NCBI GenBank assembly: GCA_938003955.1
Contig: CALKXE010000002.1
Coordinates: 41,296-105,295, forward strand
Length of the DNA: 64,000 nucleotides
Direction of reading: 5' to 3'
Source of the DNA: an uncultured Saprospiraceae bacterium
GTDB taxonomy: Bacteria; Bacteroidota; Bacteroidia; Chitinophagales; Saprospiraceae
Of the stretch, positions 5,080 to 62,881 are shown piece by piece. The notes under the pieces were generated by a model that saw only the letters and a list, made by a program, of their open reading frames with translations, did no database searches and was not told where the DNA came from. The position numbers were made by a program, and so were the translations under genes. Positions within the stretch are counted from its first letter, which is position 1. Each line of letters starts with the position of its first letter.

Positions 5080-5661
5080 AGTTAGTAAGTTTATTAAAAA
5101 ATCTAATTAAAAAAAATAAGCGATCGCAACTAGAAAAAATAGTCAATGACCAAATAATCTAATATACGACAAATGCCGATTAACTGATAAAATTGGGGTT
5201 GTTTGTAAAAACGTAAAAACTGTCAAGAATATGACACTTGATAAGAAAGACATAAATTATAAAATTCAACCATATATAAATGATTGAAATAGATATAATT
5301 ATACTAGCCTCGCGGACTCAAATATAAAATTCCCTGGTTAATTGTTTGTTAATTATTAGCCAAAGTATTCTTTTTTGTTGAAAATCAAAAAATATAAGCG
5401 TTAAAACACAATAAATATATCATTTTGACATATTATCAAAATTCAAAATATTTGACTACATTTCCAGAATTAAGCAATACTCAACAAAGAGAACTGGGCA
5501 AACCAGATTGAGTGAGCCAAAAAAAAAGCAGATACAGTTACTGTATCGGCTTAAATTTAACTTTAGAAATAATTGAATTGAAATGTCTATTTAAACTTCT
5601 TTATTTTTTTGAAACATAAAATTGAACGACAAAATGCCACTACTCAATCAAAAATAGTATT
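5080..5661. other. Intergenic region of 582 bases
   Basis: No credible gene is seen. The left part is the leader of the gene at 2101-5079; a minus-strand box TATATTTG (5319-5326) fits the Bacteroidota -7 consensus but has no clear -33 partner and would give a leader of about 240 bases. The right part holds the terminator of the enoyl-CoA hydratase gene. Confidence 0.5.
5519..5550 (-). terminator. Terminator hairpin after enoyl-CoA hydratase
   Basis: GATACAG (5531-5537), loop TTA, CTGTATC (5541-5547), extended by GC/GC across one mismatch. On the minus strand it is followed by a run of nine T (5519-5527). It lies about 110 bases beyond the stop codon at 5662. Confidence 0.7.
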
Positions 5662-6432
5662 CTAAAAATTTGCCTTCCTCTTCTCAATAAACGCACTAAC
5701 ACCTTCTTTACATTCATCACTTACCAACAGATCACCAAACGTAGAGTATTCAGTTTCGTAACCATTTTTTGCATTATCGTAATATGCATTAATCGCAGCT
5801 ATTGCTTTTGAAACAGCCAGAGGCCCTTTACTTTTTGTTTTCTTGAATATCCCCATACATGTATCGATCAATTCATCTTTCTCTACAGCATAGTTCACCA
5901 ATCCAATATCATGAGCTTCTTCCGCTGTAACCATTCCTCCAGTTAATGTTAACTCCATTGCTTTAGCCTTTCCTACTAATTGTGGAAGTCTTTGGGTACC
6001 TCCATAGCCAGGAATAAGTCCTAAGGAAACTTCTGGTAAACCAAATTTTGCATTCATCGAAGCTACTCGCATGTGACATGACATAGCTAACTCACAACCT
6101 CCACCAAGTGCAAATCCATTAACTGCTGCAATGACTGGCACATGAAAATTCTCTATCAAAAAAAATGTTTCCTGGCCAAACTTTGACACCTTACTCCCCG
6201 ACTCTACTGTGAGATTAGTAAAACCTTTGATATCAGCTCCAGCTACAAATGCCTTTTCTCCACTCCCAGTAACTATCACTCCTTTTAGTCCTTCTATAGT
6301 TTTATACTCTTTGCCAAACCAATCATTCAGTGCTTGCATAACATCTGCATTGATAGCATTTAGTGCTTTAGGTCTATTTATAGTAACAGTCGCGATTCCC
6401 CCTTCTGAAGAAATTAATACAGTTTCATTCAT
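5662..6432 (-). CDS. Enoyl-CoA hydratase/isomerase (crotonase family)
   Basis: 256 residues, the usual length of bacterial crotonases. The oxyanion-hole segment KAFVAGADIKGF, the GGGCELAMSC motif with the first catalytic Glu, and FGLPEVSLGLIPGYGGTQRL with the second catalytic Glu are all intact, so hydration of trans-2-enoyl-CoA in fatty acid beta-oxidation or a butyrate/crotonyl-CoA route is expected; substrate chain length cannot be told. The protein is cytosolic. The gene starts 9 bases after the stop of the membrane hydroxylase-family gene upstream, so the two probably form one operon, which suggests a shared role in lipid metabolism (inference). Confidence 0.9.
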   Translation of the reverse strand: MNETVLISSEGGIATVTINRPKALNAINADVMQALNDWFGKEYKTIEGLKGVIVTGSGEKAFVAGADIKGFTNLTVESGSKVSKFGQETFFLIENFHVPVIAAVNGFALGGGCELAMSCHMRVASMNAKFGLPEVSLGLIPGYGGTQRLPQLVGKAKAMELTLTGGMVTAEEAHDIGLVNYAVEKDELIDTCMGIFKKTKSKGPLAVSKAIAAINAYYDNAKNGYETEYSTFGDLLVSDECKEGVSAFIEKRKANF

Positions 6433-6441
6433 ATTATATAT

Positions 6442-7713
6442 TTAAGTGCTTATTGTAAGGTTAGGTTTTATTCCTGCATCTTCATTCAAGAAGTACACAT
6501 TTAGAGACAGCGAAATAATCAAATAAAAGACAAATAATGTAGTCCCGTGAGGAATAATTTCATCCAAACCATACCAACCGCCCAATTGACGAATCAAAAC
6601 GAGCGCTAAAATTATTTTCATTACTTCAAATAGTGTAGAAAGTCTGGACCGATCCATAAGACTAGTATAACTATATATACTGAGTGCCAGAAACAAACCA
6701 TACAGCAAAATCCATAAAAAAGAAGTATCCGCAAAAGATTGAAACATATGGATCATCAAAGTCAAGTTGATAACCAACTGCATCCATATCCATATATGCA
6801 TAGTCACTGATCCTGGTGTTTCATACTTTACTTGATCACTGGCGACTACGGTATATGGTATTGGGTCTTCTTGTTCTCTATCGTTTGGCCTCCAACCTGT
6901 CGGCATAATGAATACTTTCATTTTATCTATCCATGATCTTGTAAACCAAGCATCTTTCACCAATATCCATAAATGCTGGAAGTTGATCAGAAAAGGATTC
7001 CATGTATTTGCTTGCCTCTTCACTCCATATACTGGAATTTCGTCAACCAACTCCTCTTGAAATGTTCCAAATAACCTGTCCCATATTATAAAAACTTGAC
7101 TGAAATTCCGATCCATATAGACGTCATTTATTGCATGATGAACTCTATGGTGTGACGGAGTGACAATAATGCTTTCTAAAAAACCCATCTTATTAATCAA
7201 TCTAGTGTGATACCAGAACTGAGCGAACAAATGCAATGGGGCAACGATAGCTATAACCTCTGCTGGAACCCCTAATACAGCAAGTGGAATAAGTAGAAAG
7301 AAAAATACGCCAAAAACAGCGGATATATTTTGTCTCAATGCACATGCAAGATTGAATTCCTCACTACTATGATGGATGATATGACGGTTCCATAGGATAT
7401 TGATCTCATGCTCAAATCTATGTGCCCAATACCCCGCAAAGTCCAAACCAATAAATGTAATTAGATATAGCCAAAGCTTAGACTCTATTTCTATTAAACC
7501 AATATGATCCACCATCCAGCTATAGCTAATAATTATTACGGCCAAGCCTAAAACTTCCTTCAAAGAATTAGTAAGACCAGAACTCAGACTCGAAACTGTG
7601 TCAAAACTCCTAATAACTGACATTCCCTTCACCTTAGATATACCCAATTCTATAAGAATTAGGACCATAAAAAAAGGTATAGCATATGTTAAAACTTCTG
7701 CGTAGGTCTGCAT
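6442..7713 (-). CDS. Sterol desaturase/fatty acid hydroxylase family membrane protein (alkylglycerol monooxygenase-like)
   Basis: 423 residues with at least six hydrophobic segments. The di-iron histidine motifs of the fatty acid hydroxylase superfamily are present: HRFEH near residue 112, NRHIIHHS near 125, and the C-terminal SHHRVHHA near 188. The surrounding IVTPSHHRVHHAINDVYMDR and WDRLFGTF match the branch that includes alkylglycerol monooxygenase. It is thus a probable integral-membrane oxygenase acting on a lipid chain; the substrate is not known. The C-terminal half is a further group of membrane helices. It is the first gene of a pair with the enoyl-CoA hydratase 9 bases downstream. 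A tandem palindromic repeat lies directly upstream. Confidence 0.85.
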   Translation of the reverse strand: MQTYAEVLTYAIPFFMVLILIELGISKVKGMSVIRSFDTVSSLSSGLTNSLKEVLGLAVIIISYSWMVDHIGLIEIESKLWLYLITFIGLDFAGYWAHRFEHEINILWNRHIIHHSSEEFNLACALRQNISAVFGVFFFLLIPLAVLGVPAEVIAIVAPLHLFAQFWYHTRLINKMGFLESIIVTPSHHRVHHAINDVYMDRNFSQVFIIWDRLFGTFQEELVDEIPVYGVKRQANTWNPFLINFQHLWILVKDAWFTRSWIDKMKVFIMPTGWRPNDREQEDPIPYTVVASDQVKYETPGSVTMHIWIWMQLVINLTLMIHMFQSFADTSFLWILLYGLFLALSIYSYTSLMDRSRLSTLFEVMKIILALVLIRQLGGWYGLDEIIPHGTTLFVFYLIISLSLNVYFLNEDAGIKPNLTIST

Positions 7714-7777
7714 TGTTTAATATTGATTAGAAGGTAAATATAAGGTATTGTAAAAGAATTTATGAATTAATTCCAAT

Positions 7778-8120
7778 ATGTCTGACATCTCAAAGAGTGT
7801 CTGACATTTATTTGTTTTGAATCCGATAATCTGTCTGTGGATCCATGCAAGTGTCAGACACCTGTTAGGTGTGCAGACACTAGTGTTAATCCGAAATGTC
7901 TGACATCTCAAAGAGTGTCTGACATTTATTTGTCCAGAATCCGATAGTCTGTCTGTGGATCCTTTTAAGTGTCAGACACCTGTTAGGTGTCTGACACTAG
8001 TGTTAATCCGACATGTCTGACATCTCAAAGAATGACTGACATTTATTTGTCCAGAATCCGTTAGTCTGTCTGTGGATCCATGTAAGCGTCAGACACCTGA
8101 TTGGTGTGCAGACACTGGTG
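7778..8120. repeat. Three tandem ~117-bp repeats carrying a palindromic core
   Basis: Copies start at 7778, 7896 and 8013, each at ATGTCTGACATCTCAAAGA. Every unit ends with a long inverted repeat; in the second unit it is perfect, GTGTCAGACACCT / AGGTGTCTGACAC around GTT (13-bp arms). The copies differ at scattered positions, so the array is not recent. Similar TGTCAGACACC palindromes are known as dispersed REP-like elements in other bacteria (recalled, not searched). No coding frame is convincing here. Confidence 0.9.
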
Positions 8121-8317
8121 ATAAAAAAAATTATTATGAGAAAAGAATCAAAATGAATGGAGCAGCCAATTTGAATCAACTACTCCATCCAAAACGCTAA
8201 TACTACGTCTTTATAAAATCATATTTTCACTCTTTTTTTCAACTTTATCCACTCAAATGACAGCGAATTCATACAATGGTTGCTCTATTAAATAGAATTA
8301 ATTAAATTATGAATTAC

Positions 8318-8345
8318 TTGCTTACATTTGAATTAGTTACTTTTG
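8318..8345 (+). promoter_or_regulatory. Bacteroidota-type promoter of the giant cargo gene
   Basis: TTG at 8318-8320, 17 bases, then TACTTTTG at 8338-8345, which fits the Bacteroidota -33/-7 consensus (TTG and TAnnTTTG). The ATG follows 20 bases later, giving a very short leader. Confidence 0.7.
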
Positions 8346-8365
8346 TAATAACAATTTGAGAAATA

Positions 8366-11300
8366 ATGGGAAGGATATTTTTAACTATGTGCATCTGCAC
8401 GCTTATTACTATTTACGGAACATCACAATGTCCTGACCTCCCAAACAACGTTGAAGTCAATGGAACCAATGATCTTGACTTCCCACTTTGTGGCGCTCAA
8501 TCAGTAACATTTACTGTGGATGATCCGAATTTACCTAATGGAACCATCGATTGGTATTCGAGTAATACATCGGGATTTGATCCATTAATTAGTGGAACGC
8601 TCATAGGCAGTTCTGCAATAAGCAGTTCCGTAACACCTCTTTGTCCAGCAATAGAATCCATATATATTGATGCATGTGACGATGAAGGTGGAAATGAATT
8701 TATGATTGTTAGTTCTGGCTCTGGTGTTGCAGTAAATGATTTAACGTTTACTTTTGACGTAGCAAACACAGGAGGTTCCGCCGCCAATGGAAACATCAAT
8801 TTTGGAGGGGTGTGTGGATGGACAACAGGAAACTTAGCTTTAGTTTTTGGATGTACAACAATGATCAGTGTTGGCCCAGGAGACTTCGTACCACCTAACA
8901 GTACCATGATAATACAAACCAGTTCTGGTGGAATCACTTCTTATGATGTGTCTGGTATATGTGGAACATCAGATTGTATATATGTATTGCGTAGTTCTTG
9001 TGAACGAATTATTGGTGGTTTTTCAAATTCTGATGCAGGAACAGGCGCATCGAATGTCAGAATAAATATTTTAGGAATAGCTGGCTGTCCAGATGACGTT
9101 CTGATATATGATCTTTTAGACCCAACTTTTGATGCAACTGATGGAGCACATGTGTATAAAGATTTGACATTTGCTAATTTTGGCTGTAATGTTGGACCTA
9201 GTATATCAACTATACCTCAAGCAACACTTTCAGCTAGTACAGATCCATTTAACCATATATTCAATTGCGACGATGAACTATTTGTCGTTGGAGTTTTAAA
9301 CTCAACTGAGTATAATGAAGACTGTTGTGGTGAACAAATCACCAATGAGTACTCTTTCAATGTTGCCTGTCCCGAAGCCGAGCTAAGTGGCGGTGGCGTT
9401 ATTTGCACAGGAGAATGTACTGATATAAATGTAACATTTTCAGGTGGCGTATCTCCTTATGATTTAAATTTGGAAGTAACAGGTTCATTATTCCCTATCC
9501 CATTTTCATTGACGAATTTTGATGTAGGAGAAACAATTACGATCTGTTATGATAGTCTAGGACCACCTCTAGATCCAGGAACTAACACAGTTAATGTTCC
9601 CGCTCTTTTTGGAGACTTTAATGGATTTGTGGAACTACTTAGTTTTCAAGATGACAACGGCTGTGCTGGTATCGTTACTGGCCTTCCCGTAAATATAGAC
9701 TTCAATGATGCACCAGATATAATTACTCCTCCCCCATTTACAGAATGTGACATGGGAGATGGAACCGCTTTTTTTATACTGTCTGATTATGATATTATTA
9801 TTAACGATGGTACTGGACTAACAGTTAATTATTTCTCTGACGCAATGGGGACTATCCCTATCTCAAACCCATATCAATCTTCTGGAACAACAACTATATA
9901 TGCTCAAGTAGAGGACAATCCTTGTAGTAGTGAGATTGTTCCTGTTATATTAGAGGTAATAGCAAATGGTGATGCAGGAATCGTAAGTATGTTCTGTAAT
10001 ATAGGTGGAACAAATAGTCTAGAATGTACAATTTGTGACAACGACAATGTACCAGGAGAAGAAGTAACCATTACTATTGTTTTTCAGGAAGTTACTGTAG
10101 TGTATAATTTTGATGTATTGGTATCTCCTATGGGAGGAGCACCTTTTACAATCAGTGGAGTTTCAAACGCTGGAACAGGAACAATTACATTGGATATATT
10201 TGAGACTACGACATTCCAAGTAACATTGGTTGATCCAGACAATGACTGCCCCGACATGACTGATCTTGGCGATGCAGTTACAATAATATATGGAATGACA
10301 CCCGATATGGACGACCCAGGAGATCTTTCAAACTGCGGAGATATTGTACTTCCGGCTATAACAGGAAATAGCATACCCGCTAATGCTGGTTACTATACTA
10401 TGCCCGGAGGAATGGGGACGATGTCTATGCCCGGCGATTTAATTTCAGCGAGTACTACCCTTTACTTATATGGTGGGTTTACAGGCTGTGATCAAGAAAT
10501 AGAAATAGAATTAACCATAGTAACCGCTGGAACGATTGATGACCCTGGTACAATCAATGCTTGTGGATCATATATTCTACCTGCAATTACAGGCACTAAC
10601 GTTGACAATGCTAATTACTATACAGAAACCAATGCTGGCGGAATGATCCTTCCAGTTGGACAAAACATAACAGCGAGTACCACAATATTCATTTTTGACC
10701 CTATATGTACTGGCGCAGAAGTATCATTCATGGTCATCATTACACCAGGAAGTGTAATCACAACTGGTCCTGATACACTTGTTTGTGACACTTTCTTTGT
10801 AGAAGCTATAGAAGGTATGGACTTAACTGGCTTAGAATCATACTACGAGTTAACGGGGGGAACGGGTCAAGAAATCTCAGTGGGTGACACAATTACGCAA
10901 GATACGACGATATACATTTATGATAACACGCCTGGTTGCGTCCAAGAAATTCCGTTTGTAATTTCAATTGCGCAGCCTCTTTTCCCTGGTCTAGATTCCT
11001 CTATTGTAATATGCGAAAGTGACCCTGTACTATATAATATCAACCAATTACTTGCGGGAAGCGCTCCAGATCCATCTGGTTTCTGGATAGAGTCTGGTAC
11101 AAATATTATTAATGATAGCACTCAAGTTGACTTTTCATCATTAACAGTAGGTCCGTATTCGTTTGATTACATGATCAATGATACAATCTGTCAAGAATCA
11201 TCTGCAACATTAAGCGTAAGTATTGTAGGCGCTGTAGATGCTGGAATCGATACACTTTATGCTGTATGCGAAAACATAACTGGAGTTAATGTTTATGAAC

Positions 11301-42622: not shown

Positions 42623-44611
42623 ATGAGAATATTTAGGGATATCAACGAACTTCCCAATTTTAAAAATGCCGTTCTGACAATCGGGTCCTTTGATGGAGTC
42701 CATCGAGGTCATCAAAAGATCATAAAACGGATAAATCACCTGGCAAAGGAGATTGACGGTGAGAGTGTTATAATTACATTTGATCCTCATCCGCGTAAGA
42801 TAATCTATCCTAAGGATGATTCTTTTGTGCTACTCAATACGCTGGACGAAAAAATAGATCTAATAGAAAGCTTCGGAGTCGACAATTTAGTGATCGTCCC
42901 TTTTTCTGTCGAATTTTCGCAACAGCCACCTAGAGAGTATATTGAACGTTTCTTGTTGAACAGTTTCAAACCATCCTATATAGTTATTGGTTACGACCAT
43001 AGATTCGGACTAAATAGAGAAGGAAACATTGATCTCCTAGAAGAATATAGCCCAGAGCATAAATTCGAGGTGATTCAGATAAAAAAACAAGAATTAGAAG
43101 ATATTACCATAAGTTCTACCAAGATTAGAACCGCAATAAAAGAAGGTGATATAGAAGGTGCAAATCAATTCTTAAATCATAATTACAAGATCTCAGGAAT
43201 AGTTGGGCATGGTGACAAAATAGGTAATACAATAGGCTACCCTACTGCAAATATTGAGATAAATGAAAAACATAAACTTAAGCCTCAAGAAGGTGTCTAT
43301 GCAGTAACCTGCGATATAGAAGGCCTGCATAAAAAAGGCATGATGTATATAGGGACTAGACCGACTATATCAGGCGTTACCCACAAACAAAAAATCGAAG
43401 TCAATATTTTTGAATTTGATGATAACATCTACAATAAACCGATAGAAGTATCTGTGTTGACTCGAATAAGAGGAGACCAAAAGTTTGATTCGTTATCTGA
43501 GTTAAAAGGTCAACTAGCTATGGATAAAATTGCAGTTCAAGATTTTTTTGACACACCTCCGCCTGAAGTTCACTCTCAGGATAGAGTTTGCATAGCTATC
43601 TTAAACTGGAACGGCGAAGAATACTTAGAGTCCTATCTTCCGCAAGTACTTTACTCATCATCCGATCCAATTAACATTGCTGTGATAGATAATGCCTCTG
43701 ATGATGACTCAGTCGCATATGTACAAGACTGGCATCCCGAAGTACAGATGATACAACTTCCTAAGAATTACGGATTTGCTGAGGGATACAATAGAGGCAT
43801 GGAGTATATTGATGCTGAATATACTGTCATTCTTAATTCTGATGTAAGTGTCAAAACAGAGTGGTTAGACCCAATATTAGAGGCAATGGACAATGATCCT
43901 ACCTTAGCTATTTGTCAACCCAAAATACTGAGCCTAGAAGAAAAGGACTCGTTTGAATATGCAGGAGCAAGTGGTGGTTTTTTAGACAGTCTAGGTTATC
44001 CATATTGTAGAGGACGTATATTCAACAATCTTGAAAAAGATAATGGCCAATATGATGATGAAATGTCTATCGACTGGGCAAGTGGCGCCGCTATGGTCGT
44101 AAGGACTGAGGTTTTTAAAAATCTTGGTGGATTCGACAGTGACTACTTTGCTCATATGGAAGAAATTGACTTTTGTATCAGAGCAAGAAAATGCGGTCAC
44201 AAAATCAAAGTTATTCCGCAATCCACAGTCTTTCATCTCGGTGGTGGCACATTAGATTATAGTAGCCCTAGAAAGGTAAAACTTAACTTTAGGAATAGTC
44301 TTTACACGTTATACAAAAATGAGAATGCCGGTAGTTTAATCTGGAAGTTACCTGTCAGATTAATACTTGATGGAGTTGCTGCTGCAAAGTTCTTAACAGA
44401 AGGTAAAACATCTAACATCAAAGCAATTATAGGCGCACATTGGAAATTCTTTAGCCAGATTCCAACGTTGACAAAGAAGAGAAAAACTCTCAAAAAAATA
44501 ATTCAAAAACACAAAGTAGGTAACCCTACTCCACAATCTAGATACTCGTCTTCTATTGTCCTTGACTTCTATATAAAAGGAAAAAAGACGTTTGATAAAT
44601 TGAGCAAGTAA
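42623..44611 (+). CDS. ribF: Fusion: bifunctional riboflavin kinase/FAD synthetase (RibF) + family 2 glycosyltransferase
   Basis: 662 residues in one frame. Residues 1-~312 are a complete RibF: GSFDGVHRGHQ and ISSTKIR (FMN adenylyltransferase), then GNTIGYPTANIEI and VNIFEFDDNIY (riboflavin kinase), ending at LAMDKIAVQDFF where RibF proteins normally stop. A short linker (DTPPPEVHSQDR) leads into a complete GT2: VCIAILNWNGEEYL, VIDNASDDDS, NYGFAEGYNRGM, the metal site VILNSDVSV, and FAHMEEIDFCIRARKCGH; C-terminal NFRNSLYTLYKNE is typical of Bacteroidota rhamnosyl-type GT2s. The RibF part makes FMN and FAD; the GT2 part should add a sugar to a surface glycan. In other genomes these are separate genes. 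The pseudouridine synthase gene overlaps its stop by one base. Confidence 0.9.
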   Translation: MRIFRDINELPNFKNAVLTIGSFDGVHRGHQKIIKRINHLAKEIDGESVIITFDPHPRKIIYPKDDSFVLLNTLDEKIDLIESFGVDNLVIVPFSVEFSQQPPREYIERFLLNSFKPSYIVIGYDHRFGLNREGNIDLLEEYSPEHKFEVIQIKKQELEDITISSTKIRTAIKEGDIEGANQFLNHNYKISGIVGHGDKIGNTIGYPTANIEINEKHKLKPQEGVYAVTCDIEGLHKKGMMYIGTRPTISGVTHKQKIEVNIFEFDDNIYNKPIEVSVLTRIRGDQKFDSLSELKGQLAMDKIAVQDFFDTPPPEVHSQDRVCIAILNWNGEEYLESYLPQVLYSSSDPINIAVIDNASDDDSVAYVQDWHPEVQMIQLPKNYGFAEGYNRGMEYIDAEYTVILNSDVSVKTEWLDPILEAMDNDPTLAICQPKILSLEEKDSFEYAGASGGFLDSLGYPYCRGRIFNNLEKDNGQYDDEMSIDWASGAAMVVRTEVFKNLGGFDSDYFAHMEEIDFCIRARKCGHKIKVIPQSTVFHLGGGTLDYSSPRKVKLNFRNSLYTLYKNENAGSLIWKLPVRLILDGVAAAKFLTEGKTSNIKAIIGAHWKFFSQIPTLTKKRKTLKKIIQKHKVGNPTPQSRYSSSIVLDFYIKGKKTFDKLSK

Positions 44612-56160: not shown

Positions 56161-56682
56161 TTAGTTTCGTGCAACTTTACTTATTTTTTCATTGATTAAT
56201 TCAACAAGATATTTTGCTTTTGAATCTCCTAATGCCGCTCCAAAGTCATACGATCTGTGAAGCTGTTTAAACCTTATTTTACCTGGATTATTAAGATTTA
56301 TTCTTCCCGGCTTAGCTTGTTGTTTATTTGTACGCTCATCAACTATGGTACAAAGTATATCTTTTGGTGGTTGCATTGTTCTACTAAATCCTAGATCAAA
56401 AAGCTTGATTGACAAAGTGATTTCGCTTTTCGAAACCTTTATTTGTTCAAATCCAAATTTTTGCCACAGGTTTAATATAACCATGAATACTCCAGCAAAG
56501 GACCACCCTACTAACCAAATATAAAGCACTGTTTGCTCTAGGGCTAAAGTATACTTAAATATCAAAAACCATAAAATAAACCATATTACACTGAATAAGG
56601 GTAATTTAAAATTAACATCCGTTGGAATTGTGATTGTCAAGTCAGTACCATGATCTTCGACTGTAGCTTTTTTATCTTGCAA
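56161..56682 (-). CDS. Membrane protein of unknown function, PH-like
   Basis: 173 residues. Two helices near 27-70 (LPLFSVIWFILWFLIFKYTL, TVLYIWLVGWSFAGVFMVIL) follow a short beta-rich N-terminus (DLTITIPTDVNFKLPLF), and a soluble C-terminal domain follows (FEQIKVSKSEITLSIKLFDL). This is the layout of bacterial PH-domain membrane proteins of the YdbS/YcxB kind; no exact family is recognised. Convergent with the cysteine-containing gene, 14 bases between the stops. Confidence 0.6.
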   Translation of the reverse strand: MQDKKATVEDHGTDLTITIPTDVNFKLPLFSVIWFILWFLIFKYTLALEQTVLYIWLVGWSFAGVFMVILNLWQKFGFEQIKVSKSEITLSIKLFDLGFSRTMQPPKDILCTIVDERTNKQQAKPGRINLNNPGKIRFKQLHRSYDFGAALGDSKAKYLVELINEKISKVARN

Positions 56683-56724
56683 TTTAATTTGTTTTGTATT
56701 CGATAATTGTCAGTAATCTCTGTA

Positions 56725-57381
56725 TTAATCCCACCATAACCAAACACCATTCATTTGAGTCATGGCCTTTTTTAATTCTTCAATTGTTCCAACTCCTTGA
56801 TCAACGGAATCAGGACAGAACTTGTAAACCTCCTCTGCAAATGCATCCATATCACTCGGTAACTTATCAAATTCTACATGAACCCAATCTCTGCTGCAAC
56901 CAATAATCTTTATTCCGTATTGGGATTGCCATTCATTCATTTTAGCAATAACATCCTTGTTTTCTATACCGTGATTTATTCCATCTGTTCTCCTATACTT
57001 TAATATATCTATGTCATCTGCCCCTTTTATAACACCAATACTATTTTTTTGATAGCTTAATTCAAACAGAAACAGTAAATATCCTGACTTTCTAAAATTG
57101 GATTTCTCTCTACGAATGAATCTTATTGCTTCATCTTCTGTAGCGCTTGAGAAGATTCCTTCAAACACATTAGGTTTAGCTAAGATCTCTCCTGTTTCTT
57201 GTCCTATCCCAGGTAGTTGTTCTATTGTGCTTTTTGTATTTTCCTTGACTTTATTTATTAGCTCTATATCAAATTTCAAACTATTTAATAATTCAGTTTC
57301 TGTTTCAGTTAGACTGTTCTTTTGAGCACAGCCAAACAGTATAAAGATTGATGCAATTGCTAATATTTGTATTTGTCTCAT
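56725..57381 (-). CDS. DUF4253 lipoprotein
   Basis: 218 residues. Lipoprotein signal ILAIASIFILFGCAQ. The C-terminal half matches DUF4253: DIDILKYRRTDGINHGIENK, KMNEWQSQYGIKIIGCSRDW, VHVEFDKLPSDMDAFAEEVY, KFCPDSVDQGVG. Function is not known; this family is often seen in polymorphic-toxin immunity settings (recalled), so an immunity role is a possibility only. It has its own promoter in the 3' end of the upstream gene. Confidence 0.75.
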   Translation of the reverse strand: MRQIQILAIASIFILFGCAQKNSLTETETELLNSLKFDIELINKVKENTKSTIEQLPGIGQETGEILAKPNVFEGIFSSATEDEAIRFIRREKSNFRKSGYLLFLFELSYQKNSIGVIKGADDIDILKYRRTDGINHGIENKDVIAKMNEWQSQYGIKIIGCSRDWVHVEFDKLPSDMDAFAEEVYKFCPDSVDQGVGTIEELKKAMTQMNGVWLWWD

Positions 57382-57453
57382 TTTTTGTTTTTAATTATGT
57401 GTAACGATCTTTTAATTGTGACAAGCCTACGAGCTTCGAGCAGGTATGATCAT

Positions 57454-57484
57454 CAAATATATTGTCAGTGATAGCATTTCCCAA
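57454..57484 (-). promoter_or_regulatory. Promoter of the DUF4253 gene
   Basis: On the minus strand TTG (57482-57484), 20 bases, TATATTTG (57454-57461): a full match to the Bacteroidota consensus. It overlaps the last codons of the upstream gene (57465), so these two genes have separate starts of transcription. Confidence 0.7.
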
Positions 57485-58115
57485 TAGATATTTTTTCATT
57501 CACCTTAATCGTATCTTGATGGTTATGGAACCATACTTCTTCAGTAAAGTAATCTAAATTCAAGAACTTCAATTTATCATATTTATAATGGAAACTTGAT
57601 GTTCCATTAATACTAACTGAATAGCAATTAACTTTTTCCATTGTTTCACCTAGAGATACTATTGTTTCTAATGGGATATTTTTGTATTCTAGAAAGCCCT
57701 TAAAATATTTGTTATTTATGTTGCCGATAAATTTCCATTCCCAAAACTGTCCAATATGCCAATCTGGATTTTTTTTAGATTTAAAACGACCATTTTCAAA
57801 ATTGTAATTATTTATATTATTCTTTGATACTTGCAAAAATGAACTAGAATCAAAGCCGTCACTAAATAATGTCACTTCAATTGAATTATTTGAGTGAAAT
57901 TTAATGTTTTTAAATGGAAATAATGTAGTACAAATAGCCGTAAGTGAATCAAAGTAATTTTCATTTTGGACGTAATTATCCTTCATTTCTTCCTTTACAT
58001 AATTAGCTAAAGGTTTTTCAAATGGATAAACATCAAATTCATTCTTCCACCAATTTGAAGCATATATTAGAAATATAATTGCTAAACCTGCATATATTTT
58101 AGACTCAATCTTCAT
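57465..58115 (-). CDS. Protein of unknown function with N-terminal membrane helix
   Basis: 216 residues. N-terminal helix IYAGLAIIFLIYASNWW, then a mostly beta domain with no recognisable family (FHSNNSIEVTLFSDGFDSSS, WHIGQFWEWKFIGNINNKYF, SINGTSSFHYKYDKLKFLNL). It is probably in the periplasm, anchored by the helix. Codon use is like that of the neighbouring small genes. No function is proposed. Confidence 0.55.
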   Translation of the reverse strand: MKIESKIYAGLAIIFLIYASNWWKNEFDVYPFEKPLANYVKEEMKDNYVQNENYFDSLTAICTTLFPFKNIKFHSNNSIEVTLFSDGFDSSSFLQVSKNNINNYNFENGRFKSKKNPDWHIGQFWEWKFIGNINNKYFKGFLEYKNIPLETIVSLGETMEKVNCYSVSINGTSSFHYKYDKLKFLNLDYFTEEVWFHNHQDTIKVNEKISIGKCYH

Positions 58116-58257
58116 CTATTAATAGCTTCTTATAAATACAATTATATGTTGACTCTTCATTGTGATGCTTTGAATTATTAAAACCAGATAAAGTATTGGT
58201 TTCATTTGTAATTTTTGATTTTTGCTCCATGCTGTATCATATGCCTATTCATACAGT

Positions 58258-58788
58258 TTAATTTTCTAAATCAAGTATCTGGTTCGGTTCACTTGTAATT
58301 TCACTGGAAACAATATTTAATTCAACTATATAGTATGCTTGATACTTTTCATATTCATCTCCAGTATTTTTAATTCCTATATTAATCTTGTAAAACCCCT
58401 CAGGAATAGATTTGCTGAATTGAATTGGAGAACTATAATCCTTATAATTTCCTTTGTCGTCACAAATCATGGTAAATTCTGCATGATTCAATATAAGCAA
58501 TTCATCATCTGATTTAATTGATAAATACTGTGAGATTACATTATCAAAATTTGAATGATTTAATTCAGTATTAAATGATACGCTCAAGTTAACGCTGTCT
58601 CCTTCATTTGTGGTAAGAGCAATTATTTGATGTTCCTTTAATAGCTCCGCTAATCCACCAGGAAAGTTATAGTCGAATTCATTTTCTGAATATTTCGACA
58701 TTAGTGCTTTGGAAGATGCGATTACCAAAACTCCTTCTGCATATAATTTGATTTGGGCTTTACTTTTCATTGGTCGTTCAAATTTCAT
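58258..58788 (-). CDS. Protein of unknown function
   Basis: 176 residues, no signal or membrane helix, so cytosolic. Parts such as KAQIKLYAEGVLVIASSKAL, LAELLKEHQIIALTTNEGDS and SPIQFSKSIPEGFYKINIGI are beta-rich. No family is recognised. It lies among small single genes in an accessory stretch and might be cotranscribed with the broken methyltransferase gene 52 bases upstream on the same strand. Confidence 0.55.
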   Translation of the reverse strand: MKFERPMKSKAQIKLYAEGVLVIASSKALMSKYSENEFDYNFPGGLAELLKEHQIIALTTNEGDSVNLSVSFNTELNHSNFDNVISQYLSIKSDDELLILNHAEFTMICDDKGNYKDYSSPIQFSKSIPEGFYKINIGIKNTGDEYEKYQAYYIVELNIVSSEITSEPNQILDLEN

Positions 58789-58840: not shown

Positions 58841-59525
58841 TCAATATAATATACCGTTTTTTTTACCAATGAATATGATCTCATTGATGGAATCCAATTC
58901 AACTAATTTAACTACTTTAAACTTTGTTTTTCTAATGGCATTCTTAAGTATTTCAAAGTTGATAGATCTTCTATCAGAACTATCTTTGCTAAGAGGAACT
59001 GTTAAATAAATATACCCATTAGATCGAAGAATATCTTCACATTAAAAAAAAAACATATGGTTCTGAAATTGATTTATAATGTAGAACTTTGGAGGCAATT
59101 ACTAAATCAAATGCTGCTGAATCAAACTTCATATCAGCAAAATTAGAAGAAAATTGAAATTTAAAAACATCTTCAAACCTGTCATTAGATAGTGGAATTT
59201 TACATAGCTCGCGTGTTACATATTTACAATAAAAATCAAAATAATTAACTGTCCCGTTATTATCTAAGTGCACTCTTCTTATTTCTTTTGCAAAATCAGA
59301 GTTTATTATAAACTGCGTAAAATAGGAATCCTTTTTTTCGAGAAAAGACTTACTTTTTATTTACAATCCTCTTATTGATTTCACTCCATATAAATGAAAT
59401 AAGCGATACGAGAACTTTCCTGTACCACTACCAATATCAAGTGCGTCCATACCACTTACGTTGACCGAAATAATAAATTTCTCAAATTCTTCAAGCAATA
59501 TTTCATATTCTTTTACACCTGTCAT
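58841..59525 (-). pseudogene. Broken class I SAM-dependent methyltransferase gene
   Basis: Three pieces in order form one methyltransferase. Piece 1 (59525-59361): MTGVKEYEILLEEFEKFI and motif I DALDIGSGTGKFSYRL, then an in-frame TAA at 59361-59363. The same frame continues as piece 2 (to 59037) with AKEIRRVHLDNNGTVNYFDF, CKIPLSNDRFEDVFKFQ, FDLVIASKVLHYKSISEPY. A frameshift near 59037, next to a run of ten A (59044-59053), leads to piece 3: CEDILRSNGYIYLTVPLSKD and ending at TGA 58841. One stop and one shift show the gene is dead unless sequencing errors explain both. Confidence 0.75.
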
Positions 59526-59542
59526 TGATTATTTTTAGTAGT

Positions 59543-59607
59543 ACCTAACATCCCTTGACATGCGGAGTCCGACCAACGGGAGGATTACGACATATCTAAT
59601 GTTAGGT
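59543..59607. repeat. attC-like recombination site (65 bp hairpin)
   Basis: ACCTAAC (59543-59549, fits RYYYAAC) and GTTAGGT (59601-59607, fits GTTRRRY) are the ends of a perfect 9-bp outer arm. Inside, GACATGCGGAGTCC pairs with GGATTACGACATATC's complement, with a one-base bulge and mismatches, around an 11-base loop GACCAACGGGA. Boxes, unpaired spacer, bulge, terminal loop and length all fit an integron attC site. It follows the fusion gene on the minus strand by 150 bases. No integrase is in the window. Confidence 0.65.
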
Positions 59608-59624
59608 GCTGGCTTTTCCAGAAT

Positions 59625-59755
59625 GTCCTTTACATCCCTCGATGAATTCATGTAATACTATAAGGGACAAAATGTCCTTTAAAATGTCCTTTATGTTTCT
59701 TTTTCGGTCAACTAAAGCTATAAAAGACAAATTGTCCTTTGGGATGTCCTTTATA
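59625..59755 (-). repeat. AAAGGACA repeats after the deaminase-ATPase gene
   Basis: On the minus strand the segment after the stop has two diverged ~65-base units (TAAAGGACATCCCAAAGGAC... and TAAAGGACATTTTAAAGGAC...), five AAAGGACA words in all. In each unit the second AAAGGACA faces TGTC[CT][TC]TT, forming a small dyad. A 60-codon frame runs through them but is repeat-made (NIKDIPKDNLS / NIKDILKDILS). Homologous proteins of this ATPase type often carry KD-rich repeats near their end (recalled), so this may be the remnant of a longer C-terminus. Confidence 0.65.
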
Positions 59756-59756
59756 T

Positions 59757-61253
59757 TTATTTCTTTATTAGATATTTTGTCCATCTGCGTTCTCCTTCTT
59801 TTACTATTAATCCATTATCCATCAGCTCATTGAGTCTACGCTGAGCTGTTTTATTGGTTATCCCAAATTTTTCTGCATAGTCACTTGCAGAAATCGGTTG
59901 GTTGGCTTGAATGAATTGAACTCCCAATTTGTCTTGTTCTGATAGGTTGTGGGTTTTATTTGAGATGATTTCTGTTAAAGCATCTGAAGATCTAGCAAAA
60001 GCTATTTCGAGTACCTTTCCTTTAATGTCGATGACAGGTAAAGGGAACCCTTTATCGGAAAGTGATTTCATGCTCCGAAGACCGATTCCTCGTTGTTCAG
60101 CAAGTCCCATCCTGTTATAGACATACATAATCTTTGGGTTTCTACTTACAGATGGCAAATCAAGAGTACGGATATCATCAAGAGTAAGCGGTGGCAATGG
60201 CATTCCAGGACTCTTAATCAGAATCTTATCATTGCTTATGAAAAGATAGTTAGCTGATGAGGTGATGCTATAATCTCTATGGATTATCGCATTAGCGATA
60301 GCTTCTCGAAGAATATCCAAAGGAAAATCGGTCTTAGAACTTCTTTTTGCTGATGATCGATCAATCGTTAGTTTTAGAGCTTTCTCTGAAACATAAGAAA
60401 ATACTCTTCTTAACTGTGTAGAAACTGGACCACCAAAATCCTCAATTTCAGTAGAACCATCGGGATATTCTATTTCTACTTTAAAAATAGTATGAGGTAG
60501 AATATGATCAACCGTCTCACCAAACAATATTAATCCCATATTAGTAGGGATATAATTTTCATTCTCAAGAGTCGCTAAACCAAATGATACTGCCCATTGA
60601 TTAAACTCTTGTGATGGATAGGTAAATTCTGAACTTGAATTATTAATGAACTCTTGGACTGCGGACTTAGAAAATTGATCAACCTTACTACCGGTAACCG
60701 ATTCCTTAAAGTATTCCTTCTTTGCTTTTGGTTTACCTTCTTTCTGGATTTTAAGTTTTTCGGCTTCTTTATATGCGATGAACTCAGATAGGCTGTTCCT
60801 AATCTTTTGGCTTATATCAGGATCAAAGTCGTGAACTTCAACCTTTGCTTCAATCAATTGATTCGCACCTTCATTTTCTATATCGACATCTGGGTCTCGC
60901 ATACCAATATAGACCTTAGGTATTCGAGATTTTATGATATGAGTGGCACATCCTCTTTTGGGCTTTGTTCTTACTTTATCAATACATGGCTCCAAAGTGA
61001 CATAAAGTACCATATCAGAAAGTTTGTCACTTTTAAGTTTTCGCTCTATTAATGTGTATTCACAATGTTCACCTATCCTCAATTCTCCTCTATAAGCCTC
61101 AGCTAAGATTTGTCCATCTTGCGTTGCTAAAATGGCTCCTACCAAAGGGTCAGGTTTGTTCTTATGTTCACCAATAGATTCTATGCTCAATGCATAAGCT
61201 CGTTCCATTAATTCTCTCGAGGTATACTTCTTTCCTTTTTTATAGGGTTCCAT
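59757..61253 (-). CDS. Fusion of RibD-like deaminase, HATPase_c_4-type ATP-binding domain and winged helix
   Basis: 498 residues. Residues ~10-140 form a zinc deaminase close to the RibD type: PDPLVGAILATQDG, the HCE motif in GEHCEYTLIE (His 63, Glu 65), LEPCIDKVRTKPKRGC (Cys 90 and Cys 102), YIGMRDPDVDIENEGANQL. Residues ~180-420 match the C-terminal half of Schlafen/AlbA-type ATPases: NMGLILFGETVDHILPHTIF, the N box LREAIANAIIHRDYS, LIKSPGMPLPP, MGLAEQRGIGLRSM. Residues ~440-498 are a winged helix (ISASDYAEKFGITNKTAQRR). The N-terminal AlbA DNA-binding domain is replaced by the deaminase. Function is unknown; phage defence by nucleotide or nucleic acid deamination is a hypothesis. The gene is bracketed by two GTTAGGT sites. 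Confidence 0.85.
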   Translation of the reverse strand: MEPYKKGKKYTSRELMERAYALSIESIGEHKNKPDPLVGAILATQDGQILAEAYRGELRIGEHCEYTLIERKLKSDKLSDMVLYVTLEPCIDKVRTKPKRGCATHIIKSRIPKVYIGMRDPDVDIENEGANQLIEAKVEVHDFDPDISQKIRNSLSEFIAYKEAEKLKIQKEGKPKAKKEYFKESVTGSKVDQFSKSAVQEFINNSSSEFTYPSQEFNQWAVSFGLATLENENYIPTNMGLILFGETVDHILPHTIFKVEIEYPDGSTEIEDFGGPVSTQLRRVFSYVSEKALKLTIDRSSAKRSSKTDFPLDILREAIANAIIHRDYSITSSANYLFISNDKILIKSPGMPLPPLTLDDIRTLDLPSVSRNPKIMYVYNRMGLAEQRGIGLRSMKSLSDKGFPLPVIDIKGKVLEIAFARSSDALTEIISNKTHNLSEQDKLGVQFIQANQPISASDYAEKFGITNKTAQRRLNELMDNGLIVKEGERRWTKYLIKK

Positions 61254-61286
61254 TTATTCTAATTTATTTTTTTATCCTATGCTTGC

Positions 61287-61293
61287 ACCTAAC
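61287..61293 (-). other. Second GTTAGGT core site, upstream of the fusion gene
   Basis: GTTAGGT on the minus strand, in GTTAGGTGCAAGC, close to GTTAGGTGCTGGC of the attC-like site. The base pattern beyond (GGGAAG / GGGATG) is also shared. No matching second arm is found, so it is half of a site. With the core at 59543-59549 it marks both ends of a unit of about 1.74 kb. Confidence 0.45.
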
Positions 61294-61516
61294 TTCCCTA
61301 TAACAGCACCCATTCTTTATAAACCTTCCCACTTTTCAAGCAAATCTTAAATAAAAGCTAATCAAAGACTATTAACAGACAGCAGAATTCAAAGTACTGA
61401 TACTTAGAATATATAATTAATTAGGTTCAATTGGCTTATCCAAATCGGATGTATATCGGTTACAGTTGTAAGATAATAATATCTCATTAATTATTTCAAT
61501 TAATCTATATAAGCTT

Positions 61517-62881
61517 GGTAGTGTATTGAAAAGTGTGTCATGATTTTAGCATCAATATTTTTTTAGCTAAAGGCCTTCGCAAGAAAGAGGTCTTTTGTTA
61601 AAAAGATATCCTCGTTATTAAACTTCCTTTATTCGCTCAGGGAACTCACGTTTGAGTACACGTATTATTTGGGGCCAACCTCTAGTTTTTCTTTGCCAAC
61701 TCTTCTTACTGTGTTGTAAAGTTAAAAATAATTGTTTTTCTAATGCTTGATCATTAACAAATGCTCCTTTTGTCTTTGTTGTTTTTCGCATTATTCTATG
61801 CAGTGATTCTACCGTGTTTGTAGTATAGATTACTCGTCGTAGTTCTTTAGGGTAATCAAAACTCACACTCAACTCTATCCACGAAGCTTTCCATTTCTTT
61901 GCTATTTCTGGGTACTTATCTCCCCATTTTTCGTCAAACCGATCCAGTTCTTCTAATGCCGAATCTGAACTATCTTTGGAATACATTGTCTTTAAGTCCT
62001 TGCATACTGCCCGTAGGTCCTTCCAGGATACATGTTTTACACTTGTTCTTACCATGTGGACTATACATCTCTGTATTAGTGATGAAGGGTATATTTGTTC
62101 TATAACATTTGTAAATCCTGATAATCCATCTACACAGAAGAACAGTACATCTACAACTCCTCTTTCTCTTATGTTTTCTAGAATTTGCCCCCAATGACGT
62201 GCTCCTTCTGACTCTCCTATGTACAAGCCTAGTACATCTCGTTGTCCCTCCATATCTACTCCAAATACTGTATATACAGCTTTGGTAACAACTTTTCTAT
62301 TCTCCCGTACTTTGAAGTGTATAGCATCTAAGTATATGATCGCGTATATATCATCTAATGGTCGACTCTTCCATAACTCTACTTCATCTATAATACGATC
62401 TGTAACTCCTGATATAAAAGATGGACTATATTTAACGCCATACATCTGATTCATATGTTCACTTATGTCTCGAGTACTCGTTCCTATTGCGTATAAACTA
62501 AGTATTTGCCTTTCTAACTCTGGGGCTATATTGCGTTCCCATTTCTTAACTATTTGAGGCGTAAATGTACCTTGTCTATCTCGGGGCGGATCTACAACTA
62601 TCTCTCCCAATCCACTTTTAAGCCTTTTCTTAGTCGAGCCATTTCTTCGGTTATTAGATCCTTTTGTCTTCGTGATATGATCATCTATCTCTTCTTCATA
62701 GGCAGCTTTTAATATCCTACCAATTAAGCCTGTCAACGCCCCTTCTTCTCCAACTAATCCTTTTCCTGACCTTAACTTCTTAATCGCTTCTTTTTCGAAA
62801 CTTTCATAATCAAAACTCTTTTTCTTTTTCATCTCGTCAATTTATGTATTTTTAAATTGACACACTTTTAGGTACACTCTC
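61517..62881 (-). mobile_element. Complete IS256-family insertion sequence
   Basis: 1365 bases. Ends GGTAGTGTATTGAAAAGTGT.. (61517) and, reversed, GAGAGTGTACCTAAAAGTGT.. (62881) form ~24-bp imperfect inverted repeats, with AAAAGTGTGTCA identical. Both sides are flanked by the direct repeat ATAAGCTT (61509-61516 and 62882-62889), an 8-bp target duplication, normal for IS256. Intact transposase inside. The intact duplication shows recent insertion without rearrangement. Confidence 0.92.
61618..62832 (-). CDS. IS256-family transposase
   Basis: 404 residues, full length for the family. N-terminal NRRNGSTKKRLKSGLGEIVV and DPPRDRQGTFTPQIVKKWER; DDE residues in YLDAIHFKVRENRKVV (first Asp), FCVDGLSGFTNVIEQIYP (second Asp) and TNTVESLHRIMRKTTK (Glu); also the HMVRTSVKHVSWKD segment typical of IS256/mutator transposases. 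No stop or shift interrupts it, so the element may be active. It occupies nearly the whole insertion sequence. Confidence 0.95.
   Translation of the reverse strand: MKKKKSFDYESFEKEAIKKLRSGKGLVGEEGALTGLIGRILKAAYEEEIDDHITKTKGSNNRRNGSTKKRLKSGLGEIVVDPPRDRQGTFTPQIVKKWERNIAPELERQILSLYAIGTSTRDISEHMNQMYGVKYSPSFISGVTDRIIDEVELWKSRPLDDIYAIIYLDAIHFKVRENRKVVTKAVYTVFGVDMEGQRDVLGLYIGESEGARHWGQILENIRERGVVDVLFFCVDGLSGFTNVIEQIYPSSLIQRCIVHMVRTSVKHVSWKDLRAVCKDLKTMYSKDSSDSALEELDRFDEKWGDKYPEIAKKWKASWIELSVSFDYPKELRRVIYTTNTVESLHRIMRKTTKTKGAFVNDQALEKQLFLTLQHSKKSWQRKTRGWPQIIRVLKREFPERIKEV

Follow-up and report, generated by a model that had tools for sequence, protein, structure and literature searches.

The window analyzed here, 64,000 nucleotides of contig CALKXE010000002.1 from an uncultured Saprospiraceae bacterium, carries at positions 59757 to 61253 an intact minus-strand open reading frame (ORF), with an ATG start and no internal stops, that encodes a RibD-type deaminase, a GHKL-like ATPase of the HATPase_c_4 kind and a winged helix in a single protein (Table 1). 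Directly 3' of the stop codon lies an array of short boxes grouped in threes, which is the surprising part of the find. An earlier note on this DNA, made from the letters alone, had described the gene as a deaminase-ATPase-winged helix fusion and a candidate defense gene. The fusion is borne out by the unbroken ORF and by matches to three Pfam domains, while the defense assignment is weighed below. The array had gone unnoticed in that note.

Table 1. Features of the deaminase-ATPase gene, its array and its surroundings (window coordinates)
Feature	Position	Strand	Remarks
Coding sequence	59757..61253	-	498 amino acids; RibD-type deaminase, HATPase_c_4 (GHKL-like) ATPase, winged helix
Deaminase domain	60756..61232	-	Residues ~8-166
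Zinc ligand H63	61065-61067	-
Zinc ligand C90	60984-60986	-
Zinc ligand C102	60948-60950	-
Catalytic E65	61059-61061	-
Linker fold and HATPase_c_4 domain	59985..60719	-	Residues ~179-423; matches DIP2311 (3lmm)
C-terminal winged helix	59766..59948	-	Residues ~436-496; HTH_24
Array unit 1	59722..59752	-	AAAGGACA-N4-AAAGGACA-N3-inverted box; starts 4 bases past the stop codon
Array unit 2	59662..59692	-	Geometry of unit 1; 60 bp after unit 1
Lone further box	59624..59631	-	AAAGGACA, near-register; third, incomplete unit
attC-like site	59543..59607	-	Inverted ACCTAAC...GTTAGGT, hairpin-forming
Upstream cassette boundary	61285..61299	-	AGGGAAGTTAGGTGC; matching AGGGATGTTAGGTAC at 59541-59555
Insertion sequence	61618-62832		Mutator-family transposase, PF00872 (5e-97)

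Domain architecture and spread of the family

Pfam placed dCMP_cyt_deam_1 at residues 17-118 (7.1e-13), HATPase_c_4 (PF13749) at residues 338-415 (1.6e-12; 47.7 bits against a cut-off of 26) and, following it, the winged helix HTH_24 (PF13412) at residues 447-483 (7.2e-7; 29.1 bits against a cut-off of 21.9). In the predicted model the winged helix consists of helices at residues 439-451, 456-463 and 467-479, and the predicted recognition helix carries KTAQRRL. Pfam domains and fold comparison agree with the earlier description of a RibD-like deaminase on a Schlafen-like chassis: the window protein has the ATPase and winged helix of Schlafen-type AlbA_2-HATPase_c_4-winged helix-turn-helix (wHTH) proteins, but a RibD-type deaminase stands at the N terminus, where those proteins have AlbA_2 (PF04326), and AlbA_2 was not among the 24 Pfam matches of the window protein at E values up to 10. 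The further statement that the deaminase replaces a DNA-binding AlbA domain holds for the place and not for the role. AlbA_2 is described as an RNase effector in PMC12839542 (2026), which also reports fusions of a Schlafen RNase, a minimal histidine kinase and a wHTH spread through BREX loci. The deaminase is therefore more likely to stand in for the effector than for a DNA-binding domain; the C-terminal winged helix is the protein's DNA-binding-type part.

RibD is the closest known kind of the deaminase domain. The zinc motif is common to RibD/RibG (2b3z, 4g3m) and the window protein, which lacks the reductase domain of RibD. His63, Glu65, Cys90 and Cys102, which the earlier note had proposed as the zinc site, are as named and near-invariant: in a family alignment of 254 rows (248 distinct; four of 234 listed proteins were dropped beforehand by length), H63, C90 and C102 are kept in 254/254 rows and E65 in 253/254. 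The Cys-x11-Cys spacing, rightly read there as longer than in RibD, occurs in 217 rows; 23 rows have x9 and 11 some other spacing, and in 3 no such pattern was found. The loop of the aligned RibD rows is three residues shorter.

Of 7997 candidates scored in a phmmer search with the window protein, 1275 matched, as did 3070 of 7995 with a 13-row profile; both counts may include single-part relatives. Of the matches listed, read by eye, 118/120 from phmmer and 120/120 from the profile carry both PF00383 and PF13749, and going by these searches the family is large. Many listed relatives are named merely "ATP-dependent DNA helicase RecG" or "ATP-binding protein". In overlapping genome samples that include the window's genome, the gene was present in 8/395 genomes of the phylum (the profile search recovered the same 8), 12/395 of the class, and 3/198 and 4/396 of the order; around other matches it was present in 4/65 species of one genus, 4/16 of one family and 1/36 of one order. 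By these counts the distribution is patchy and the gene accessory, in line with the earlier note. A phage- or plasmid-borne gene was rejected, since three pattern scans of viral contigs returned no full-length relative (the last gave two matches to the deaminase part) and no phage or plasmid record covered 80% of the query, the rows listed being nearly all to the ATPase part.

One viral-labelled contig (L101) encodes, at 7971-8888, a 305-amino-acid protein in which a RibD-like deaminase, 42% identical to that of the family member L022 over residues 8-153, is joined to an unnamed, different C-terminal part; neither HATPase_c_4 nor the winged helix was found in it. The deaminase domain thus serves more than one architecture, and the L101 type may represent a second deaminase defense type; 550 proteins match the first 160 residues (the deaminase part) of the L101 protein. 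Integrase-like and AAA-like ORFs lie within 4 kb of the L101 gene (by eye). Within the family itself, a 630-amino-acid member (L062, 8017-9909) is longer than usual in the stretch separating the two parts that match.

The three-box array

Each array unit consists of a box, 3-4 bases, the same box again, 3 bases (4 in three units) and the box inverted. We compared 24 loci (the window, L004, L005, L015-L023, L052-L062 and L100). The box varies by locus, being AAAGGACA in the window and TCAAGGACAA, CTTGGACA, TCGCGACA, CTCGCCA, TTCCGGCA, ATCCCGCA and others elsewhere. Units recur every 60-63 bp in 21/22 measured pairs, with a mode of 62, close to six turns of the double helix, and reverse-oriented units with unchanged spacing occur in L055 and as the third unit of L022. 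In L005 the gene is followed, at 2987-3330, by four units that scored, or five when counted by eye, their boxes drifting from CAAGGACA to ATTGGACA.

At least one unit lies behind 22/24 family genes and two or more behind 18/24; the corresponding counts are 2/217 and 0/217 for the 3' ends of the other genes of these loci, and 4/733 and 0/733 for random stretches. A general property of 3' ends, for instance a terminator, was rejected because only two of the 217 other genes score, one in L018 (a single unit behind hsdM, 4740) and one in L056. The first array detector had marked 11/12 loci against 19/978 random stretches. A wider-gap detector without the CA rule marked 19/23 loci downstream and 2/23 upstream (L052, L058) and missed L023, L053, L055 and L056 (4/23), while a bounded-gap detector, which demands limited gaps and boxes ending in CA, missed L023 and L060 (2/23) and detected at least two units in 18/23; the constancy of the CA letters, and some of the tightness of the gaps, therefore follow from its design. 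By eye, the boxes of L023 and L060 are rearranged or degenerate. Upstream of the gene there was no excess of boxes (5 seen against 4.3 expected within 300 bp, 21 loci, one mismatch allowed), and a promoter operator, as for an autorepressor, was rejected on that count.

The box core tracks the winged helix rather than the deaminase or the ATPase. In Mantel tests over the 24 loci (2000 permutations, so that p 0.0005 is the floor; loci are treated as exchangeable, and the related loci L018-L021, and L015 with L059, are non-independent), box-core distance correlated with winged-helix distance at a partial r of 0.323 (p 0.0005) controlling for the deaminase and 0.269 (p 0.0005) controlling for the ATPase, against reverse partials of -0.011 for the deaminase and 0.039 for the ATPase with the winged helix removed. 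The recognition helix alone gave partials of 0.289 (p 0.0005) and 0.239 (p 0.003) with deaminase and ATPase removed, respectively. For whole 8-letter boxes the winged-helix partials were 0.336 and 0.258 and the reverse partials 0.185 and 0.234, so the outer letters of the box also follow general descent. Mismatches between paired boxes showed no G-U-type (wobble) bias: boxes 1 and 3 differ by 6 wobble-compatible and 8 other transitions, boxes 2 and 3 by 10 and 21. Given this co-variation, the lack of wobble bias and the lack of an upstream excess, the winged helix probably binds the boxes, and is predicted to do so as double-stranded DNA.

Boxes also occur behind some relatives that have no deaminase. 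Among 21 canonical loci (24 PF13749 loci minus three of the deaminase family, L075, L077 and L082), a program found direct-repeat boxes 3' of the HATPase_c_4 gene in 7, compared with 37/696 control stretches; the same simple direct-pair test marked 16/24 loci of the deaminase family. The three-box unit was seen in none of the first six canonical plasmid loci (0/6), and the family array differs from the direct repeats of these Schlafen-type relatives in its inverted third box and its usually two units at ~62 bp. By eye, TAxxxL-type winged helices go with boxes (L063, L065, L068, L069, L070, L079 and L085; program pairs in 3/7), L072 having been excluded as a false flag of the text pattern. Direct-repeat boxes 10-11 bp apart stand directly behind the deaminase-less genes of L063, L068, L069, L079 and L086. 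Since boxes occupy this position behind such genes too, the array may predate the fusion with the deaminase. One annotated canonical Schlafen-type relative (L037) lies within a type I restriction operon.

Genomic neighbors, proposed function and alternatives

Flanks of up to ~10 kb, shorter at contig ends (L005, L017, L053), were compared for the 24 loci. Restriction-modification genes, all Pfam-confirmed, occur in 12 of them. The order is HsdM, HsdS, deaminase-ATPase gene, HsdR in L018-L020 (the HsdR start of L020 was read from the DNA) and likewise in L021, where HsdM and HsdR are partial ORFs; L023 reads HsdM, RhuM, HsdS, deaminase-ATPase gene, HsdR. HsdR is present in the flanks of L017 and L057, and Eco57I-type restriction genes flank L015, L053, L055, L059 and L062. 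With an AbiEi/AbiEii pair at L022, confirmed defense-type neighbors number 13/24 loci. The candidacy as a defense gene put forward in the earlier note thus gains from the family's neighbors, while the window copy has no confirmed one. The same note had raised homologs in riboflavin gene clusters and a disrupted zinc site as contrary outcomes; the zinc residues are near-invariant, and by eye no riboflavin biosynthesis cluster lies beside the gene in any of the 24 loci.

Several neighbors are of note in themselves. In L017 an HsdR with a C-terminal SLFN_AlbA_2 domain (2655-5822, minus strand) directly adjoins the deaminase-ATPase gene. In L018 a SIR2-type protein (6496-8274) stands between HsdS and the deaminase-ATPase gene; the PADLOC Aga_SIR2 models, which belong to pAgo systems, match it almost from end to end. 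The gene of L005 directly follows a nuoB-like gene (by eye).

Drawing on the fusion, the conserved zinc and ATPase-motif residues, the array geometry, the co-variation and the restriction-modification neighbors, we infer array binding, deaminase activity and a defense function. A role of the family in defense is probable. The fuller proposal, for which we see about an even chance, is a phage-defense effector whose winged helix engages its own three-box array and which would rest until infection and then deaminate. In the resting state the protein would sit, through its winged helix, on the private array that follows its gene; this state would be altered by a phage signal, by the array being lost or by ATP binding; and the released or switched deaminase would act on nucleotides or nucleic acid and stop the infection. 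The resting switch, the trigger and the substrate are the least certain parts, and that the protein is parked on the array until infection is in itself doubtful.

Several observations weigh against this proposal. The G1 motif of classical GHKL ATPases carries an Asp, and the corresponding residue of the window protein is Ser348, which makes ATP hydrolysis uncertain. Boxes 1 and 3 agree best (0.92, against 0.87 for boxes 1 and 2 and 0.85 for boxes 2 and 3), as they would in a hairpin. When all eight letters of the box are compared, the winged helix leads the ATPase only slightly (r 0.481 against 0.470), and a one-residue code between helix and box is imperfect and only suggestive, as Glu at Q471 goes with GCCA in 4/5 cases and GCCA also occurs in 2/19 without Glu. 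The 12/24 restriction-neighbor figure is a raw count over these flanks, and no defense neighbor was confirmed in 11/24 loci (the window, L004, L005, L016, L052, L054, L056, L058, L060, L061 and L100). PADLOC matched none of three proteins of the DUF3584 ATPase cluster in L052, so that this locus, at first read by eye as Wadjet-like, was dropped from the defense count. No PADLOC-DB 2023 model covers the window protein; the best-scoring are pAgo-system profiles that match it in part, at 8.9e-10 or weaker.

Among the alternatives, a transcriptional regulator fares best, though we consider it unlikely: the deaminase-like and ATPase parts would sense a ligand and the array would be an operator for the next gene, for example hsdR. 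The array does lie between the deaminase-ATPase gene and hsdR in L018-L021, L023 and L057, and RptR (PMC12255303) is a dedicated repressor that binds direct repeats at restriction loci. Yet hsdR is missing downstream of the array in about half of the loci, and solitary genes, the cassette-like window copy included, keep the array. The flat upstream count also argues against regulation, as does the near-invariant zinc site, which a mere sensor would not need.

An RNA antitoxin, with the array transcribed as a repeated hairpin that restrains the deaminase, is improbable. The precedent is AvcID, in which, according to PMC10511110, the deoxycytidylate deaminase AvcD is a toxin held by an RNA antitoxin, and boxes 1 and 3 are the best-matched pair. 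The array could be transcribed, but against this alternative stand the mismatch pattern, the tracking of the winged helix by the box core, the direct repeats in several relatives without a deaminase, and the lack of any Rfam hit across the array with E values of up to 1 allowed. AvcID shows that a deaminase can serve in defense under another kind of control; the window family may use its deaminase likewise, and its control element looks DNA-read. AvcID is not known to have such an ATPase or winged helix.

A housekeeping pyrimidine deaminase of riboflavin synthesis or salvage, fused by chance to a regulator, is very improbable and was rejected as the principal explanation: the domain is closest to RibD and the window has a riboflavin kinase/FAD synthetase gene, but the latter is 15 kb off (42623-44611), the RibD equivalog model TIGR00326 reaches 55.8 bits, where its cut-off is 156.35, and aligns over profile positions 4-117 of 343 (the deaminase half only), another contig of the genome encodes a RibD-like protein of its own, full-length at 348 amino acids (L003, 814-1860), and neither the neighbors nor the patchy distribution fits.

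If the phage-defense proposal is true, a deaminase on a defense chassis that otherwise carries an RNase would make the ATPase-winged-helix part a reusable sensing and control module. The 3' array offers a direct handle on the control of that module, naming the predicted bound DNA of each protein locus by locus, for the deaminase family and, where boxes occur, for Schlafen-type relatives. A generalization, speculative and in our view rather unlikely, is that ATPase-winged-helix conflict proteins, with an RNase or a deaminase in front, carry, immediately behind their stop codons, private arrays of phased sites to which they themselves bind; that the array would be a cis-acting DNA antitoxin parking the effector; and that gene and array would move as a one-gene defense unit, even as an integron cassette. 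A preprint on phage defense by bacterial Schlafens is among the references of PMC12839542. No description of the fusion or of the 3' array was seen in the open literature searched; this preprint and the Iyer 2011 deaminase survey lay outside its coverage and may mention them.

The window copy as a cassette-like unit

In the window, gene and array are enclosed by a unit with the 15-base motif AGGGAWGTTAGGTRC at both ends, in the same orientation and 1744 bp apart, the array lying between the stop codon and the attC-like site. The motif was found nowhere else, with up to one mismatch, in 757 kb of fetched sequence (the window and overlapping window copies included). The attC-like site of the earlier note is real, and the motif at both unit ends is better evidence for it than a count of pairs: both strands of the window together have 6 loose attC-like pairs, a number within the chance range of 2-12 in ten shuffled windows. 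Its hairpin z is -2.9 on the plus strand and -1.5 on the minus strand. A search for an integron integrase gave 9 tyrosine-recombinase matches, 0 over the cut-off, in this incomplete 304-contig genome, and the search also rings in 13/14 control genomes; no convincing attC was seen beside relatives in 11 loci. The cassette form is therefore a property of the window copy, where gene and array look like a relic integron cassette. Integrons carrying phage-defense cassettes are reported in two papers cited in PMC13092281.

The adjoining insertion sequence is present as the earlier note had it (Table 1). Among the other neighbors, four small consecutive ORFs at 56161-58788 (minus strand), between which no attC was found, comprise one DUF4253 protein and three without a Pfam match. 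The next unit past the attC-like site (58930-59530, minus strand) looks, by eye, like a decayed S-adenosylmethionine-dependent methyltransferase gene in several frames, possibly a second cassette. Farther off, the plus-strand riboflavin kinase/FAD synthetase is fused in frame to a family 2 glycosyltransferase, an odd fusion.
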